Shown piece by piece: positions 1 through 7,974 of a stretch of DNA of 64,000 nt. The position numbers and the translations under genes were made by a program. Source of the DNA: Archangium gephyra (GTDB taxonomy: Bacteria; Myxococcota; Myxococcia; Myxococcales; Myxococcaceae); NCBI RefSeq assembly GCF_001027285.1, contig NZ_CP011509.1, positions 5,666,501-5,730,500 of the forward strand, read 5' to 3'. Numbering within the stretch: position 1 is the first letter of the stretch; each line of letters begins with the position of its first letter. Below the pieces are notes generated by a model. That model was not told where the DNA came from. It did not search any database and worked only from the letters and a program-made list of their open reading frames with translations.

Positions 1-2326
1 CGCCGCGCCAGGGTTCGTTGGCGGGGGCGAGCCACGCGCCCCGTTCGAGCGTCCGCCGGGAGATCACCCCGCAGGCGGCCCCATCCGGGGGGCTGCGCCG
101 GGACCGCTGGGGAGCGCCCTCCTCGGTGGCGAGGAGCCAGGGGTGGTAGAGGGCCCCGTGGCTCAGGGCGTTCTCCTCCGCGGTGCCCAGCGGGGGGACG
201 CCTTCCTCCTCGGGGGCGAGCGGGGCGCGCAGGGCCGCGGCGTGGGCGATGGCCTTCTCCTCGCGGTAGTGCTCGGGCAGGGAGAGGACGGCGAGCAGAT
301 CCCCCCGAGCGGCGCACATGCGCAGCAGCGCGCGCTGGATGGCCAGCAGGTGGCTGGCCGAGTAGTCCTCCTCGGGGCTCAGCTCCCACCGGGGCCCGGT
401 GGAGACGGACACGGCCAGGCCTGGAGAGTACGCGCTGACGAGGCCACCCAGCTCGGAGCGGACGCGGTAGTAGTACGTCCCCGCGTCCCGGCCGTGGAGG
501 GTGAGCTCACCGGTGGGCCCTTGGTACAGGGTCCTCGCTCCCAGGTAGTCCGCGCGGGTGGCCTCCTCGAGCACATGGGTCGCACCCGGCCCCGTCGGTG
601 TGGTCCACGTCAGGGTGAAGATCGTGTCGGCGGCGGGGGAAGGAGGCGTCGCGACGGGCCTCGAGGGGGGCGGGAGGACGCGGGTGCCACAGTCGAGGAA
701 GGTGCCCCACCCGGGCTCCTTCGCCGGCTCGGGCGGCTTCGGGCTGGCGGCCGGCTCCTGCTCCACGCGCTTCCAGGGCCGATGGGCAGCGTCCGGTATC
801 GCCACGAGGGAGACATCGGCCTTGGAGAGCAGGGCATGGAGGCCCTTCAGCTCGCGGGGCCGTGAGCTCTGGTAGCGGAGGAAGTCCGCGTGTCCGGGCA
901 GGGCGCGGATGCCAATCCCTCGCAGGGCCTCGTCAAGGAAGAGGCGGGAGTGGAACTCCGCGAGCCCATCGCGCTCGAGCGCGTCCAGGGGCGAGGGGAC
1001 ACAGCCCAGGAACCGCTCGGGCAGCGGTCCCACCCCGAGCGGGAGGTAGCAGGCCGGATCATCGTCCTGCTGGCCGGCGAGGGGGAAGCGGGGCTCCAGG
1101 GTCTCCTCGCGAAGGCTCGCGTGGAGCTGGAGCGTGTCCGTCGGGTCGAGGCGCTCCTCGGCCTCGAGACGCTCCCCGGTGGGGAGCTGCCCCTCGGTGA
1201 TGCGGACCCACTCGGCATCCGTGGGCAGCGCGCCCCAGTAGCGGGGGTGCTCGGGGCAGAGGCCCAGCTCCTCCAGCCGCAGCGGCTGTTCCACCCCACT
1301 CCGGATCCAGAGGCCGAGGGTGAGCAGCTCGCAGGTTCCGCTCGTGCCGGGCGGCAGCTCCGCGACGTCCGGGGTGCCGGGTAGCACCTGGACGGCCTCG
1401 CCCCGCACCCGGACGGTGGGGGTCTCCCTTCCTTCCAACGGGAAGCTTTCCCCCACGGTGAACCAGAGCGAAGCCGTGTGGCTCTCCAGGCGCAGCAGCG
1501 AGCCGGGCCGGGGTGCGTCCGCGAAGTCCGTTTCCAGCTCCAGCCCGAGCGCGGAAACCTCGCGGACGTTCAGGAGGCGCTCCGTATCGCCCCGCATCCA
1601 GCGGGCCACCCAGGGGGCCTGCTCTACCGCGGCCGAACGCAGCCACAAGGGGCGCCTGCCCTGTGCGCGGACCCACGTCTGGTGCTCCACCAGACCGGAG
1701 GAGGTGGCTCCCTGGCCAGGTACGATTGCCTTGACGGACTCCACTGGCAGGAGCAACGAGTGGCCCGACGCGGCGAAGCGGACGCGGATCAGCTCTCCGG
1801 GGGAGAGGCCGGCGGGGGCGATCACCGTCAGCTCCACCGGGCCATCCCCGGCGGGGGCGCTCCAGGCGGCCAGCGAGAGCGGCCTGGCGGAGAGGGTGGT
1901 CGCGAGCTGTAGGGAATCCGACCAACTCCCCTCGGAGCGGGCTCGGGCGAAGGCGGGGGAGAGCTGTCCGGATGCGGAGCGGCGGAGCAGCCCGGGCAGG
2001 GGGAAGAGGTTGGAGCGAGCCTCCGCCCCCGCTACCCGCACCACCCAGCAGCGCCGGCCTCCGTTGCGGAAGAAGTCCCGGACCGCGGGCGCCAGCCGTG
2101 CGTGGACGAGCTCCTTGCGCTCGGCGTCCGTGGCCAGCGCCAGATCCTCGCCGAAGAGGGCCTGGAAGCGGGCCACGTCCTCCACGACGACGGGACGGTG
2201 GAGCGGCCCCGAGCTCGCGAAGCCCACGAAGGCCGCCACGTCCATCCGGGGCAGCTCGTCCGGAATGGACGGGGCCTGGACGTCGAAGCGGATGCCGGGC
2301 AGGCGTCTGGCGTCGGGGCGGCGCAC
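1..2326 (-). CDS. Large contractile-tail sheath-like protein with an FN3-like insertion (partial, runs off left edge)
   Basis: Reading the minus strand from a GTG at 2326 gives an open frame with no stop through base 2, so at least 775 residues are visible and the C terminus is outside the window. The N terminus (RRLPGIRFDVQAPSIP, then DVAAFVGFASSGPL) resembles the first domain of contractile tail sheaths. The end of the visible frame (ALYHPWLLATE, then GVISR and GAWLAPANEPWRG) matches the conserved sheath core that normally reads LYYPW, AGVYAR and KAPAN. Between them is a long insertion. Around bases 640-430 it contains a fibronectin-III-like segment (FTLTWTTP to YYYRVRSE). The start is one base past the tube gene stop, with GGAG about 10 nt upstream. 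It is probably an Afp3/Afp4-like second sheath. Family assignment is strong; the role of the insertion is unknown. Confidence 0.82.
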   Translation of the reverse strand, partial: MRRPDARRLPGIRFDVQAPSIPDELPRMDVAAFVGFASSGPLHRPVVVEDVARFQALFGEDLALATDAERKELVHARLAPAVRDFFRNGGRRCWVVRVAGAEARSNLFPLPGLLRRSASGQLSPAFARARSEGSWSDSLQLATTLSARPLSLAAWSAPAGDGPVELTVIAPAGLSPGELIRVRFAASGHSLLLPVESVKAIVPGQGATSSGLVEHQTWVRAQGRRPLWLRSAAVEQAPWVARWMRGDTERLLNVREVSALGLELETDFADAPRPGSLLRLESHTASLWFTVGESFPLEGRETPTVRVRGEAVQVLPGTPDVAELPPGTSGTCELLTLGLWIRSGVEQPLRLEELGLCPEHPRYWGALPTDAEWVRITEGQLPTGERLEAEERLDPTDTLQLHASLREETLEPRFPLAGQQDDDPACYLPLGVGPLPERFLGCVPSPLDALERDGLAEFHSRLFLDEALRGIGIRALPGHADFLRYQSSRPRELKGLHALLSKADVSLVAIPDAAHRPWKRVEQEPAASPKPPEPAKEPGWGTFLDCGTRVLPPPSRPVATPPSPAADTIFTLTWTTPTGPGATHVLEEATRADYLGARTLYQGPTGELTLHGRDAGTYYYRVRSELGGLVSAYSPGLAVSVSTGPRWELSPEEDYSASHLLAIQRALLRMCAARGDLLAVLSLPEHYREEKAIAHAAALRAPLAPEEEGVPPLGTAEENALSHGALYHPWLLATEEGAPQRSRRSPPDGAACGVISRRTLERGAWLAPANEPWRG

Positions 2327-2327
2327 G

Positions 2328-2780
2328 CTATTCCATCTCCAGTCGCTCGTAGGCGATCGTCAGCTCCTCCATCGCCACGTCCGTGCCCTTGGCGTTCAGC
2401 GGGCCACTGACGTGCTTGATGATGCGGGCCCGCAGCAGCTTCCACGTCTGGACGATCTCGGTGTGGTCCTCGTTCTGGAGCTGGATGGTGATGGTGCGGA
2501 GCGCGTTCTGGTCGCCGTTGCGGATCTGGTGGAGCCAGTTGTAGAGCGTCAGCGAGCCGATGACGCCGCGCTTCATGGTGACGTCGGTCGTCTTGTTGAG
2601 GCCGGTGATTTTCCGGACGCTGTTCTCCTTCTCGTTGCCATTGCGGTAATCGACGACGGTGACCTCCATGCCGATGTTGCTGATCTCCTGGAATCCCGCG
2701 TCCGGCCCGTCGGTGTTGCCGGTGCCGAGGTCCACGAGGAAGTTGAACTGCACATAGGGACGATCACGGTAGACGGCCAT
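2328..2780 (-). CDS. Contractile injection system tail tube protein (T4 gp19/Afp1-like)
   Basis: The 150-residue product opens MAVYRDRPYVQFNFLVDLG and ends MEELTIAYERLEME. This is the typical size and pattern of gp19-family tube subunits, in which the protein forms the inner tube propelled through a target envelope by sheath contraction. The N-terminal 'F.V.I....' strand, the central 'YRNGN' loop and the C-terminal 'EELTLAYE..' strand are characteristic. It lies 26 nt after the sheath gene and one base before the second sheath, so all three are almost certainly co-transcribed. No signal peptide or membrane segment is visible, as expected for an intracellularly assembled particle. Confidence 0.88.
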   Translation of the reverse strand: MAVYRDRPYVQFNFLVDLGTGNTDGPDAGFQEISNIGMEVTVVDYRNGNEKENSVRKITGLNKTTDVTMKRGVIGSLTLYNWLHQIRNGDQNALRTITIQLQNEDHTEIVQTWKLLRARIIKHVSGPLNAKGTDVAMEELTIAYERLEME

Positions 2781-2806
2781 GGGAAGGGGCCTCCTGGGCG
2801 AGCGGG

Positions 2807-4780
<1,974 letters not shown>

Positions 4781-4799
4781 CGACAGGTCCTCGCATTCC

Positions 4800-5663
4800 T
4801 CAGGGGAGTGAACCGGTGGGCGTGAGCCTGAGCCGGGAGAGAGAATCGTTCTGGGTGCGCACGACGAGCTCCTGGTCGAAGCGGAGCGTGCGCTCGATGT
4901 GGTCCTGTGCACCGGACAGGTCGGGCCAGAGCCGGGCGGGTGGCTGCCCCAGGGTGTCGTCGAGCTCCGGGAACTCGCGCACGGGCGAGCGGTGCGCGTA
5001 GAAGGCGGAGAGCCGCACCGTCCAGGTCTGGGACAGCAGCGGCGGGCCCTGGGAGAAGGAGGAGCCGGACCCGGCGGTGGCGGGCGCGAAGTCCTCTGGC
5101 GCCGGATACTGGAAGAAGAGGGCGATCCGTCCCTTGTCATCCGCCACGCCGCGAGCCGGAGCGCCGTCGCCCACGGAGAGCTCCAGCCGGGCCCACGAGG
5201 CCGGTGCGTCATGGGTCGTGTCCCACAACTCGGCGCGCAGCACCGCGAGCGTGCGCGAGGCCTGCCGGGTGGGGGCGGAGAAGAGGGGGACGGAGGGCTC
5301 CGCGGAGGGCGGTGACAGGGGCACGGGCGAGAAGAGGCCGTGGGAGGGCAGGTCGGCGTGGAAGGACAGGGGCAGGAAGCGCCCAAGGGTGTCGAGGAGC
5401 TCGACGGTGAAGCGCTTGGGCGAGGCCTTGGGGAGAGCCCCTTCGCCGTTCATCTCGAAGTCACGCAGCCCAGGCAGATCCTGGAGCACCCAGACCTTGC
5501 TGGGGGTGACGAAGGCGTGTCGGCTCAGCGAGGGCCGTGAGGGCGGGAACGCCCGCACCACGAGCCCGTCGCCGATGAAGTGGCCGGTGCTCTCGTCGCG
5601 GAAGCGCATGCCGAAGGGCACCACGCGCGACACCTTCGTCAGGACGTGCACCGGGGGCCTCAT
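4800..5663 (-). CDS. eCIS operon protein of unknown function (287 aa)
   Basis: I do not recognise a named family. The protein starts MRPPVHVLTKVSRVVPFGMRF and lacks a signal peptide or membrane segment. It contains a proline- and serine-rich stretch around residues 105-130 and a beta-rich second half (ARLELSVGDG, RGVADDKGRIALFFQYP) that resembles the small carboxypeptidase-regulatory or SpaA-like sandwich fold. Its ATG overlaps the stop of the DUF4255 gene (ATGA), and it ends 19 nt before the sheath start, so it belongs to the tail operon. By position it could be a tail terminator partner, cap or surface decoration; this is inference. Confidence 0.7.
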   Translation of the reverse strand: MRPPVHVLTKVSRVVPFGMRFRDESTGHFIGDGLVVRAFPPSRPSLSRHAFVTPSKVWVLQDLPGLRDFEMNGEGALPKASPKRFTVELLDTLGRFLPLSFHADLPSHGLFSPVPLSPPSAEPSVPLFSAPTRQASRTLAVLRAELWDTTHDAPASWARLELSVGDGAPARGVADDKGRIALFFQYPAPEDFAPATAGSGSSFSQGPPLLSQTWTVRLSAFYAHRSPVREFPELDDTLGQPPARLWPDLSGAQDHIERTLRFDQELVVRTQNDSLSRLRLTPTGSLP

Positions 5664-6253
5664 GGCTCGGTGTACCTCCCGTGCTGGAGCTCACGGGTCT
5701 GGACGGCCGGAGGCTGCTCGTCGCGGAGGGCCGACTCGAGGACGACCATGCGAGCGACGTAGGTGGCGGAGACCTGGAGATCGGGCTTGCCGACCTCCCA
5801 GACGTTGAGGAGATCCTGGATGGAGAGCGGATCGAAGACGAGGGTGACGGTCTCGTCGGGCAGGAAGGTGTCCGTCTCCGGGCGGCCATAGTGGTTGAGG
5901 AACTGGGCGGTGAGGGTAGGGGTGTCCTCGAGCGTGCGCATGGCCCAGCCGAGCAGTCGGTGCTGGCGCGCGGCGCTTCGGGCCCAGGGCGTGAGGAGGT
6001 AGTGGAGGTCGACCGGAAGCGGTTGCCGGTAACGTCGGCCCTGTGCATCCACGCGTCCAGGCAGGTTGCGGCGGTTGGTGCTGGGCACGACGCGGAAGAG
6101 GAAGAGGGAGATGCCCTCCTCCATGTGCGCCTTGAAGTTACTGGCCTGGTAGAGTTCGAACTTCGCGCCCTGGAACTCGGGCTTGGGACAGGCTTGTTCC
6201 AGCAAGCCGAGGAGGGCCTGTCCAAGGGCCGCGATCGCCGCGTAGGTTGCCAA
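5660..6253 (-). CDS. DUF4255-type tail terminator/cap protein (Afp16-like)
   Basis: The 197-residue product (YAAIAALGQALLGLLEQACP, then FELYQASNFKAHMEEGISLFLFRV and LPVDLHYLLTPWA) matches the DUF4255/Pvc16-like family, which closes the sheath-tube end of extracellular contractile injection systems. It is the first gene of the operon. The start is TTG at 6253, with GGGGAG 8 nt upstream; no ATG fits the conserved N terminus. The sigma54-type promoter begins about 105 nt upstream. A few residues near the C terminus (LQHGRYTEP) run into the next gene through a 4-nt overlap. Family call is good; the structural role comes from characterised Afp/PVC particles. Confidence 0.85.
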   Translation of the reverse strand: MATYAAIAALGQALLGLLEQACPKPEFQGAKFELYQASNFKAHMEEGISLFLFRVVPSTNRRNLPGRVDAQGRRYRQPLPVDLHYLLTPWARSAARQHRLLGWAMRTLEDTPTLTAQFLNHYGRPETDTFLPDETVTLVFDPLSIQDLLNVWEVGKPDLQVSATYVARMVVLESALRDEQPPAVQTRELQHGRYTEP

Positions 6254-6357: not shown

Positions 6358-6373
6358 AGCAACCGCCGGGCCA
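6358..6373 (-). promoter_or_regulatory. -24/-12 sigma54 promoter of the eCIS operon
   Basis: The minus strand reads TGGCCCGGCGGTTGCT. The consensus TGGCACG-N4-TTGCW is matched at all but one position, with the diagnostic 10-bp spacing between the GG and GC dinucleotides. Transcription would start near 6347, leaving a leader of about 95 nt before the TTG start at 6253. The next gene upstream encodes a sigma54 activator, which independently supports the call. Confidence 0.78.
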
Positions 6374-6573: not shown

Positions 6574-7542
6574 TCAGCGAGTGAGACCGTGCCGGCGCAT
6601 GAGCTCGAAAAAGGCGCGGCGGTGCTTGCCACTGGCGCGAGCCGCGGCGGCGATGTTGCCATCGTGGGCGCGGAGCGAGGCCTCGAGGTACTGGCGCTCG
6701 AAGGCGGAGACGACGCGGCGCTTGGCGGCCTGAAAGGTCTCGTGAGGCGAGGAGGAGGGGGGCGGCGGAGCGGAGGGCTCGGGAGCGAAGTCCTGGAGGG
6801 TGGGGAGATCCTCGGCCTCGACGACGGAGCCGCCATGGGTGCACAGGAGGTAGCGGGCGCAGTTCTCCAACTCGCGGATGTTGCCGGGCCAGTCGTATTC
6901 CCACAGGCGTTGGAGTGCCGCCTCGGAGAAGGTGAGCAGGGCCTTGCCGTATTCGGAGGCGTAGCGGTGGATGAAGTGTTGGAGCAGGAGGGGGATGTCC
7001 TCGCGGCGCTCCTTGAGGGGCGGGACCCAGATGGGTAGCACGCGCAGGCGGAAGAAGAGATCGAAGCGGAAGCGGCCCTTCTTCACCTCGGCGACCAGGT
7101 CGGCGTTGGTGGCGGCGATGATGCGCACATCCGAGCGGTGCAGGCGGGTATCGCCCAGGGGCCGGTACTCCTTCTGCTGGATGAAGCGCAGCAGCTTGAC
7201 CTGGCCAGCGAGGGGCAGGGAGTCGATCTCGTCCAGGAAGAGGGTGCCCTGGTGGGCCTCGGCGACCAGACCCACGGCGCGGGTACGGGCGCCGGTGAAG
7301 GCGCCACCGGCATGGCCGAAGAGTTCGTTCTCGAAGAGCTCGGGGGGAAGAGCGCCGCAGTTGACGGGGATGAAAGAGGCTCGTGCGCGGGTGCTCAGCT
7401 CGTGGATGCGCCGGGCGTAGAGTTCCTTGCCCACGCCACTGGGTCCATGGATGAGAACCTCCGCGTCGGTACTGGATGCGGAGGTGACCAGCTCCAGCAG
7501 GCGTTCATGGATCCTACTGTTGCCGAGGATCTGCGCGGTCAT
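6574..7542 (-). CDS. Sigma54-dependent activator, PspF-like (AAA+ domain plus Fis-type HTH)
   Basis: The 322-residue product has a Walker A GPSGVGKE (about 33-40), the sigma54-contacting GAFTGA loop (80-85), Walker B LFLDEID (101-107), the DNA-helicase-like FWIVR/R-finger region (RFDLFFRLRVLPIWVPPL) and a C-terminal Fis-like helix-turn-helix (NIAAAARASGKHRR). There is essentially no domain before the AAA+ module, so no receiver, GAF or FHA input. As in PspF, activity would have to be set by a partner protein or by expression level. A longer frame reaches 7674, but the start at 7542 has AGGGGGG just upstream and fits the fold. It reads toward the eCIS operon, whose sigma54 promoter lies 200 bp beyond its stop; control of that operon is the obvious inference. 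Confidence 0.9.
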   Translation of the reverse strand: MTAQILGNSRIHERLLELVTSASSTDAEVLIHGPSGVGKELYARRIHELSTRARASFIPVNCGALPPELFENELFGHAGGAFTGARTRAVGLVAEAHQGTLFLDEIDSLPLAGQVKLLRFIQQKEYRPLGDTRLHRSDVRIIAATNADLVAEVKKGRFRFDLFFRLRVLPIWVPPLKERREDIPLLLQHFIHRYASEYGKALLTFSEAALQRLWEYDWPGNIRELENCARYLLCTHGGSVVEAEDLPTLQDFAPEPSAPPPPSSSPHETFQAAKRRVVSAFERQYLEASLRAHDGNIAAAARASGKHRRAFFELMRRHGLTR

Positions 7543-7855
7543 GGCAAAGCCCCCCCTCGCGGATAGATCACCCCAGTTGCCGCGGCGGGGAGAGAAAGAA
7601 GTGAGCGCGAATGTTTTTTGGGCGACAGGGGGCTGCGGCTCGACGGACTCGAGCGAGACTGCTCGAGCAGCCACCAGTTCCGCCAGACATCGTCGAAAGA
7701 GCGCTCCGCATCACCGTTGCCGCCGAGCGCAGGTTCGAAGCCCGGAGGAACCAGGGTGAGTCAGGGCCGCTCGCAGCCGGACGCAACCGCTCCCTTCTCG
7801 ATAGCCGAGCAGGAGGACGTGGGGAGAGGTTCCTGAGCTGTTCGAACGCAGCGGG
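7543..7855. other. Non-coding stretch between the tRNA unit and the activator gene
   Basis: No credible gene is seen. The small frames here overlap each other on both strands and lack family features or a good ribosome site. The part nearest 7542 must carry the activator's promoter and its AGGGGGG ribosome site; no convincing sigma70 or sigma54 boxes were found. Confidence 0.5.
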
Positions 7856-7900: not shown

Positions 7901-7974
7901 TGGCCAGGGTCGGACTTGAACCGACTACCTGCGGATTATGAGACCGCCGCTCTAACCAGGTGAGCTACCTGGCC
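7901..7974 (-). tRNA. tRNA with CAT anticodon, most likely elongator tRNA-Met
   Basis: The minus strand folds as a 74-nt cloverleaf. It has acceptor GGCCAGG/CCTGGCC with A73, D-arm GCTC/GAGC, anticodon loop CTCATAA (anticodon CAT), and T-arm loop TTCAAGT. No CCA is encoded. A CAT anticodon can also belong to tRNA-Ile2 (lysidine-modified) or initiator Met. The A-T-rich CTCATAA loop and the paired first acceptor position argue against initiator; Met versus Ile2 is not resolved by eye. Confidence 0.88.

Follow-up and report, generated by a model that had tools for sequence, protein, structure and literature searches.

Zhang (2012) proposed that PVC-type systems deliver polymorphic toxins, a notable part of them without immunity genes (PMC3482391). 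Geller (2021) reported some toxin-immunity pairs in extracellular contractile injection systems (eCIS) and found it a mystery that immunity genes are generally missing (PMC8213781). How the producers survive and what the eCIS toxins attack are left open in both papers. Danov (2024) marked these toxins by a signal at the N-terminus, for which low hydrophobicity and disorder are scored, and by the domain DUF4157, which was carried by 36% of the known toxins in one set (PMC11297309). In the present study, we analysed a stretch of 64,000 nucleotides of Archangium gephyra (the window; positions 5666501-5730500 of the single 12,489,432-base contig NZ_CP011509.1), which holds five genes of an eCIS operon at its left edge. 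The operon continues to the left of the window and carries an effector gene whose C-terminal tail is exchanged among relatives together with the gene that follows it. From these comparisons we consider it likely that a complete eCIS operon delivers one modular polymorphic toxin with a probable immunity gene. No paper was found in a literature search on Archangium gephyra with contractile injection.

The effector and its trunk

The effector gene lies at -24432..-20926 on the minus strand, directly after the ATPase gene (negative coordinates are left of base 1 of the window, and the genome position is the coordinate plus 5666500). A payload gene beyond base 1 had been predicted by the first-pass annotation, made from the letters of the window, and this effector fits that place; the payload is more informative than foreseen because it appears to be part of a toxin-immunity cassette family. 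The protein was initially called with 1122 aa, but the conserved N-termini of its relatives place the start at an ATG that follows the ATPase stop by 5 bases, so that the protein has 1168 aa. It consists of a disordered leader, an all-helical trunk and a C-terminal tail. DUF4157, a common but non-obligatory marker that forms the eCIS core domain, had no match in this effector. A search of 59 relatives, with residues numbered on the 1122-aa form, gave matches in four, one of them the effector itself. The first of the others shares residues 2-785 at 66% identity and has an unrelated end, the second shares an N-terminal piece and residues 494-778, and the third shares part of the tail only. As read from these alignments, the match pattern is one of modules.

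The trunk, searched with an alignment of 260 columns (A2), was present in 22 of the 195 genomes of the phylum. A search of the genome collection gave 23 loci with the trunk, from groups including Myxococcota, Proteobacteria, Acidobacteriota and Anaerolinea. The hosts are Corallococcus, Myxococcus, Pyxidicoccus, Citreicoccus, Archangium and Minicystis, and further Accumulibacter, Derxia, Lysobacter, Methylococcales, Acidobacteriota groups, Anaerolinea and Siccirubricoccus. All 16 genomes of the 195 whose sheath is at least 66% identical over the full length also have the trunk, and in 32 of 40 loci the gene immediately preceding that of the effector codes for an ATPase homologue. No Pfam family covers the trunk, no match was found in phage records, and no description of the family was found in the literature searched, which covered few subscription papers and no preprints. 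When 38 of the 43 related effectors (alignment A3) were scanned with Pfam and NCBIfam, DUF4157 (PF13699) was found in eight, and Apolipoprotein matches in 23, as expected of long amphipathic helices. DUF4157-based searches would miss this trunk.

On a plasmid of Streptomyces clavuligerus (L109:13075-17538), a DUF6301 gene follows the trunk protein, away from eCIS genes. In Deinococcus taeanensis (L110:10273-14762), a gene joining DUF4157 to the trunk overlaps the next gene by 4 bases.

Coupling of the tail to the next gene

The effector gene is followed by a gene for a 252-aa protein (-25178..-24420, minus strand), which overlaps it. Whether such neighbours agree with the tails was examined in 40 loci with 43 effectors. 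The C-terminal 200 residues of every tail were clustered by blastp, and so, separately, were the genes that follow. Two loci, L017 and L018, were excluded because they duplicate the DNA of L023 and L038. Near-duplicate effectors of Derxia (L031/L035) and of Siccirubricoccus (L041/L042, on one contig) were kept, and L082, L084 and L085 are close to L081. The Minicystis partner was missed by the gene caller and was entered by hand from tblastn, and in clusters T7 and T9 one counted partner begins about 300 bases after the toxin.

The 43 effectors fall into 28 tail clusters, and the tails were different in 97 of the 111 effector pairs with trunks 75-99.5% identical. An immediate next gene on the same strand, not belonging to the backbone, was present for 29 of the 43. 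The partner family was common to all 12 same-tail pairs and to none of the 394 different-tail pairs; none of 20000 permutations reached the observed 12, the maximum being 4. Among trunks at least 89% identical, partners were shared in 6 of 6 same-tail and 0 of 50 different-tail pairs, and among trunks less than 75% identical in 5 of 5 same-tail pairs, one of which joins a Thermoanaerobaculia metagenome-assembled genome (MAG) to a member of the window's family at 41% trunk identity. Because the coupling holds at both levels of trunk identity, it is not accounted for by common descent of the locus. In Corallococcus sicarius (L021), two tandem effectors have trunks 98% identical and unrelated tails, each followed by its own unrelated partner. 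The tail and partner of A. gephyra recur together in Minicystis rosea, with 69% identity in the tail, 55% in the partner and the same 13-base overlap; in the 195-genome phylum set, a search for relatives of the 252-aa protein returned its own copy only. Altogether eight recurring toxin-partner combinations are in the set. These counts demonstrate, in genetic terms, that the tail and the gene after it are passed on together as a unit, whatever trunk they are joined to. Both a constant N-terminal part with an exchanged C-terminal part and an adjacent gene travelling with the tail, the latter as genetic linkage only, were found, and at this level the coupling is the signature of polymorphic toxin-immunity cassettes.

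The tails were scanned singly with Pfam for 19 trunk effectors and L019. An AID/APOBEC-like deaminase scored above the Pfam cut-off in two tails (L026 and L027, from a Methylococcales MAG and a Thermoanaerobaculia MAG), which are of interest as enzymes. Similarities to GH-E, GmrSD_C and PDDEXK_9 in other tails were all under the cut-off, and most tails match nothing. It appears that some tails resemble toxins that attack DNA or RNA. In the tail of A. gephyra the elements YRG (Y48 R49 G50), F[IV]ST (S174 T175) and ExE (E242, E244) are invariant in three sequences. Arginine, STS and ExE motifs in this order are the R-S-E signature of ADP-ribosyltransferases, and the guess that this tail is such an enzyme, made at the level of motifs, has about an even chance of being right. 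The gap from the arginine to the STS motif is much longer than in nine environmental PF03496 domains. The tail had no match in the viral collection searched. A stretch related to it also occurs in a free-standing 706-aa protein (L019:6913-9033), joined to an OTU-like protease domain (PF02338, 3.2e-05).

The 252-aa protein could also be read as a tail-specific chaperone or loading adaptor of an effector that hits eukaryotic predators or prey, such as amoebae and fungi. The eCIS particles studied by experiment act between bacteria and invertebrate hosts, and immunity genes were lacking for most of the antibacterial eCIS toxins that had been tested before (PMC8213781); repeat-protein partners would suit chaperones as much as inhibitors. 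However, an adaptor is expected to track the conserved leader or trunk, while the partner tracks just the final 200 tail residues, and the several tails like nucleic-acid enzymes would harm the producer too. We regard this explanation as improbable. If the partner is an immunity gene, the producer or its kin should have the target as well, and bacterial targets, or a use within the population, are then more plausible than purely eukaryotic targets. The toxin probably acts inside bacteria, and most likely it is aimed at other bacteria or at members of the producer's own kind.

Several results weigh against a toxin with a cognate immunity gene carried by an eCIS particle. The immediate same-strand, non-backbone next gene was lacking for 14 of the 43 effectors, where a glycosyltransferase gene follows at once (several), the next gene is on the opposite strand (four), or the contig ends or no gene was called (some); a partner gene is common, not universal. 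No partner matches a known immunity family, and some have WD40, HEAT or leucine-rich (LRR) repeats. Relatives of the trunk were also found on Streptomyces, Deinococcus and Oscillatoria plasmids with no eCIS operon visible around them, and the trunk is therefore not necessarily bound to one particle. The structure model of the trunk is all helix, but its mean predicted local distance difference test (pLDDT) score is only 57.8. For the tail of A. gephyra, no Pfam family and no useful PDB chain were matched, hhalign against a profile of the nine PF03496 domains gave a probability of 0.3%, and the single-sequence structure model of its Minicystis homologue was unusable (pLDDT 34.7). The G+C content of tails and trunks was no different (p 0.08), and a foreign G+C of the tails as a sign of transfer was rejected for this reason.

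The operon and its control

The five genes read by the first-pass annotation at the left edge (DUF4255, an unclassified protein, sheath, tube and second sheath) are all present on the minus strand, four of them with profile matches. The Pvc16/DUF4255 tail terminator (5660..6253, 197 aa) matches PF14065 (Pvc16_N, E 1.9e-33). Its companion of 287 aa (4800..5663) has no match in Pfam or NCBIfam; all 13 relatives examined keep it beside DUF4255, with 48-52% identity. They are followed by the 657-aa sheath (2807..4780; PF04984 1.2e-18, PF17482 5.3e-13), the inner tube of 150 aa (2328..2780; PF06841 3.5e-34) and the second sheath of 933 aa (-475..2326, of which 1..2326, the first 775 codons, is inside the window; PF17482 3.2e-05, PF04984 7.4e-04, both under the curated cut-off).

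In the 40 kb examined to the left of the window, one run of minus-strand genes continues the operon. The second tube (-995..-477, 172 aa; PF06841 4.7e-34) is followed by a 246-aa protein at the Afp7 position (-1738..-998), the GPD hub (-3002..-1929, 357 aa; PF05954 2.9e-05, under the cut-off) and the gpV spike (-3726..-3013, 237 aa; PF04717, Phage_base_V, 4.1e-27). A LysM gene had been sought in this direction, but no LysM domain was found, and the Afp7-position protein matches CIS_tube (PF19266, 1.8e-25) instead. Between the spike and gp25 (-5620..-5228, 130 aa; 4.9e-21) lies a 498-aa protein with a hydrophobic end (-5222..-3726). Baseplate J (-7916..-5634, 760 aa; Baseplate_J 3.9e-06) and Tail_P2_I (-10761..-7918, 947 aa; 2.2e-09) come next, then three unclassified proteins of 458 aa (-12179..-10803), 440 aa (-13524..-12202) and 385 aa (-14733..-13576), a 685-aa protein (-16832..-14775), and a further unclassified protein of 681 aa (-18870..-16825). 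The AAA ATPase (-20920..-18884, 678 aa; PF00004 8.1e-24) stands before the effector; its nearest NCBIfam models include PAN and CDC48, and ClpA scored only 0.0021, which makes it CDC48-like, not ClpV. After the partner gene lies a glycosyltransferase-methyltransferase gene of 763 aa (-27537..-25246; PF00535 8e-22, PF13578 8.5e-19).

The sheath, gp19 tube, gp25, baseplate J, spike, CDC48-like ATPase and Pvc16/DUF4255 together are the gene set of an eCIS of the Afp/PVC type. No type VI secretion marker (ClpV, membrane complex) was recognised in the operon. PAAR had no match among the operon proteins scanned, a search that a fused or diverged tip would escape. It had been predicted that baseplate and ATPase genes lie beyond base 1, and their absence from the 20 kb to the left had been named as the sign of a decayed remnant. 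The prediction was borne out: gp25, Phage_base_V, CIS_tube, a second gp19 tube, Baseplate_J, Tail_P2_I and the ATPase were all found within 21 kb, and the baseplate and ATPase genes are in order and open. A decaying, inactive locus would agree with the scores of the second sheath and the GPD hub under the Pfam cut-offs, and otherwise nothing was found in its favour. All expected genes are open and in order, the promoter site is conserved, and the sheath is 66-71% identical over its full length in 15 other genomes of the 195. As to gene loss we reject this explanation with hardly any doubt; the locus is a complete eCIS operon and no remnant.

A sigma54-dependent activator of 366 aa (6574..7674, minus strand; PF00158 1.3e-61, HTH_8 3.9e-05) is encoded directly upstream of the operon. 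It has AAA+ and Fis-type helix-turn-helix domains without a large sensor domain. A putative sigma54 -24/-12 promoter, TGGCCCGGCGGTTGC (6359..6373, minus strand), lies in front of the first eCIS gene, at a distance of 120 bases, and fits 9 of 10 positions of the consensus; 0.6% of shuffles of the same 320-base gap do equally well. Sites with a score of 8 or 9 of 10 were found at -87..-95 in 11 of 13 relatives, and the remaining two have score-8 sites near -57. Six of the 13 showed an activator homologue, some sequence stretches ending too early to tell. A tRNA gene (7901-7974, minus strand; Rfam RF00005, 65.3 bits) lies upstream of the activator gene.

The particle might also, as in Streptomyces, work in or for the producing population, either in development or in regulated cell death, with the partner deciding the survivors. 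The best PDB relatives of the 657-aa sheath are the phage tail sheath proteins 8bky (1.4e-106), 9ezm and 8bl4, followed by Afp3, Pvc2 and others. The first three are sheaths of Streptomyces-type cytoplasmic contractile injection systems (CIS). Nothing in the operon was recognised as a lysis gene, and the 498-aa protein with its hydrophobic end was matched in all 16 genomes with a close sheath. Myxococcus is also described as using toxin-immunity kin systems (PMC12077131). However, the layout of CisA, set apart here by description only, differs (PMC12237407), and the variety of tails at one locus points to competition over a fixed developmental role. We consider a role of this kind rather unlikely; it is compatible with a modular toxin and its immunity gene.

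Other proteins of this genome also deserve mention. The hydrophobic C-terminus of the 498-aa protein is strongly conserved, and matches were found in 32 of the 195 genomes; it is a candidate tip or membrane anchor. The 685-aa protein, predicted to be exported and with a weak MYXO-CTERM end within this eCIS operon of myxobacteria, is a possible surface anchor or receptor. The glycosyltransferase-methyltransferase gene flanks the toxin slot in many loci, directly after the toxin in Derxia and Accumulibacter, and its product may modify the particle or the toxin. A second, compact CIS locus of the same genome (G000:C1:11161078-11171777; L008, L009) has one sheath, a tube, and gp25-like and baseplate-like genes; by-eye inspection recognised no ATPase gene near it (~11.161-11.172 Mb).

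Proposed working and known systems

We propose that sigma54 RNA polymerase and the adjacent activator would transcribe the operon from the conserved -24/-12 site, and that, judging from the gene content, the sheath, tubes, spike and baseplate would form a contractile tail. The disordered leader may take the effector into the tube. The long, helical and partly hydrophobic trunk would be tape-measure-like and could enter the target membrane on firing, carrying the C-terminal enzyme across it. The tail would then be an exchangeable warhead, in A. gephyra possibly an ADP-ribosyltransferase by its motifs, and the next gene would encode a cognate immunity protein that neutralises it and protects the producer and its kin. 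The regular pairing of tail and partner gives a direct test of antibacterial or kin-directed use.

A more far-reaching proposal, which we put forward tentatively, is that this eCIS lineage is a kin-recognition weapon with a swappable cassette slot between the ATPase and glycosyltransferase genes, so that strains would differ only in warhead and antidote. The trunk might then be a new domain of general use for crossing membranes, employed against bacterial targets in several phyla, and the tail of A. gephyra a new ADP-ribosyltransferase family with a new immunity family.

The eCIS-associated toxins (EATs) also lie at the 3' end of the operon, are variable and include some immunity pairs, such as EAT5 with a new antitoxin (PMC8213781). 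Most of them are without an immunity gene and have DUF4157 as the marker, whereas here one trunk family, mostly without DUF4157, shows a systematic coupling of tail and partner. The polymorphic toxins of PVC-type systems likewise join a constant N-terminus to a recombining C-terminal toxin with PVC-type delivery, and deaminase, nuclease and ADP-ribosyltransferase tails are named among them (PMC3482391); they are defined by the PVC-metallopeptidase, while the present trunk is another constant part, with the eCIS core in 8 of 38. Sle1-type effectors of actinobacterial CIS have a coiled-coil N-terminus, dissimilar C-termini and one shown effector-immunity pair, and Sle1 is also without DUF4157 (PMC13277306). 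Compared with Sle1 by description only, the present effector follows the ATPase at the 3' end and occurs in other phyla.

The tape-measure-related effector Tme of Streptomyces davawensis has a C-terminal enzyme preceded by a long stretch that is helical and partly hydrophobic, and it occurs in several phyla (PMC11126660). It differs, again by description only, in having DUF4157 and in preceding the baseplate genes, and the word immunity appears 0 times in the text of that paper. The Afp and PVC particles have homologues of the sheath, tube, baseplate, Pvc16 and ATPase; in the present operon one of two sheaths is very large, PAAR gave no match, and the control would be of the sigma54 type. Taken together, the present family would work like the known tape-measure-like and polymorphic eCIS effectors, with Tme and Sle1 compared by description only, and it differs from them in its trunk, its place in the operon, its taxa and the strength of the tail-partner rule.

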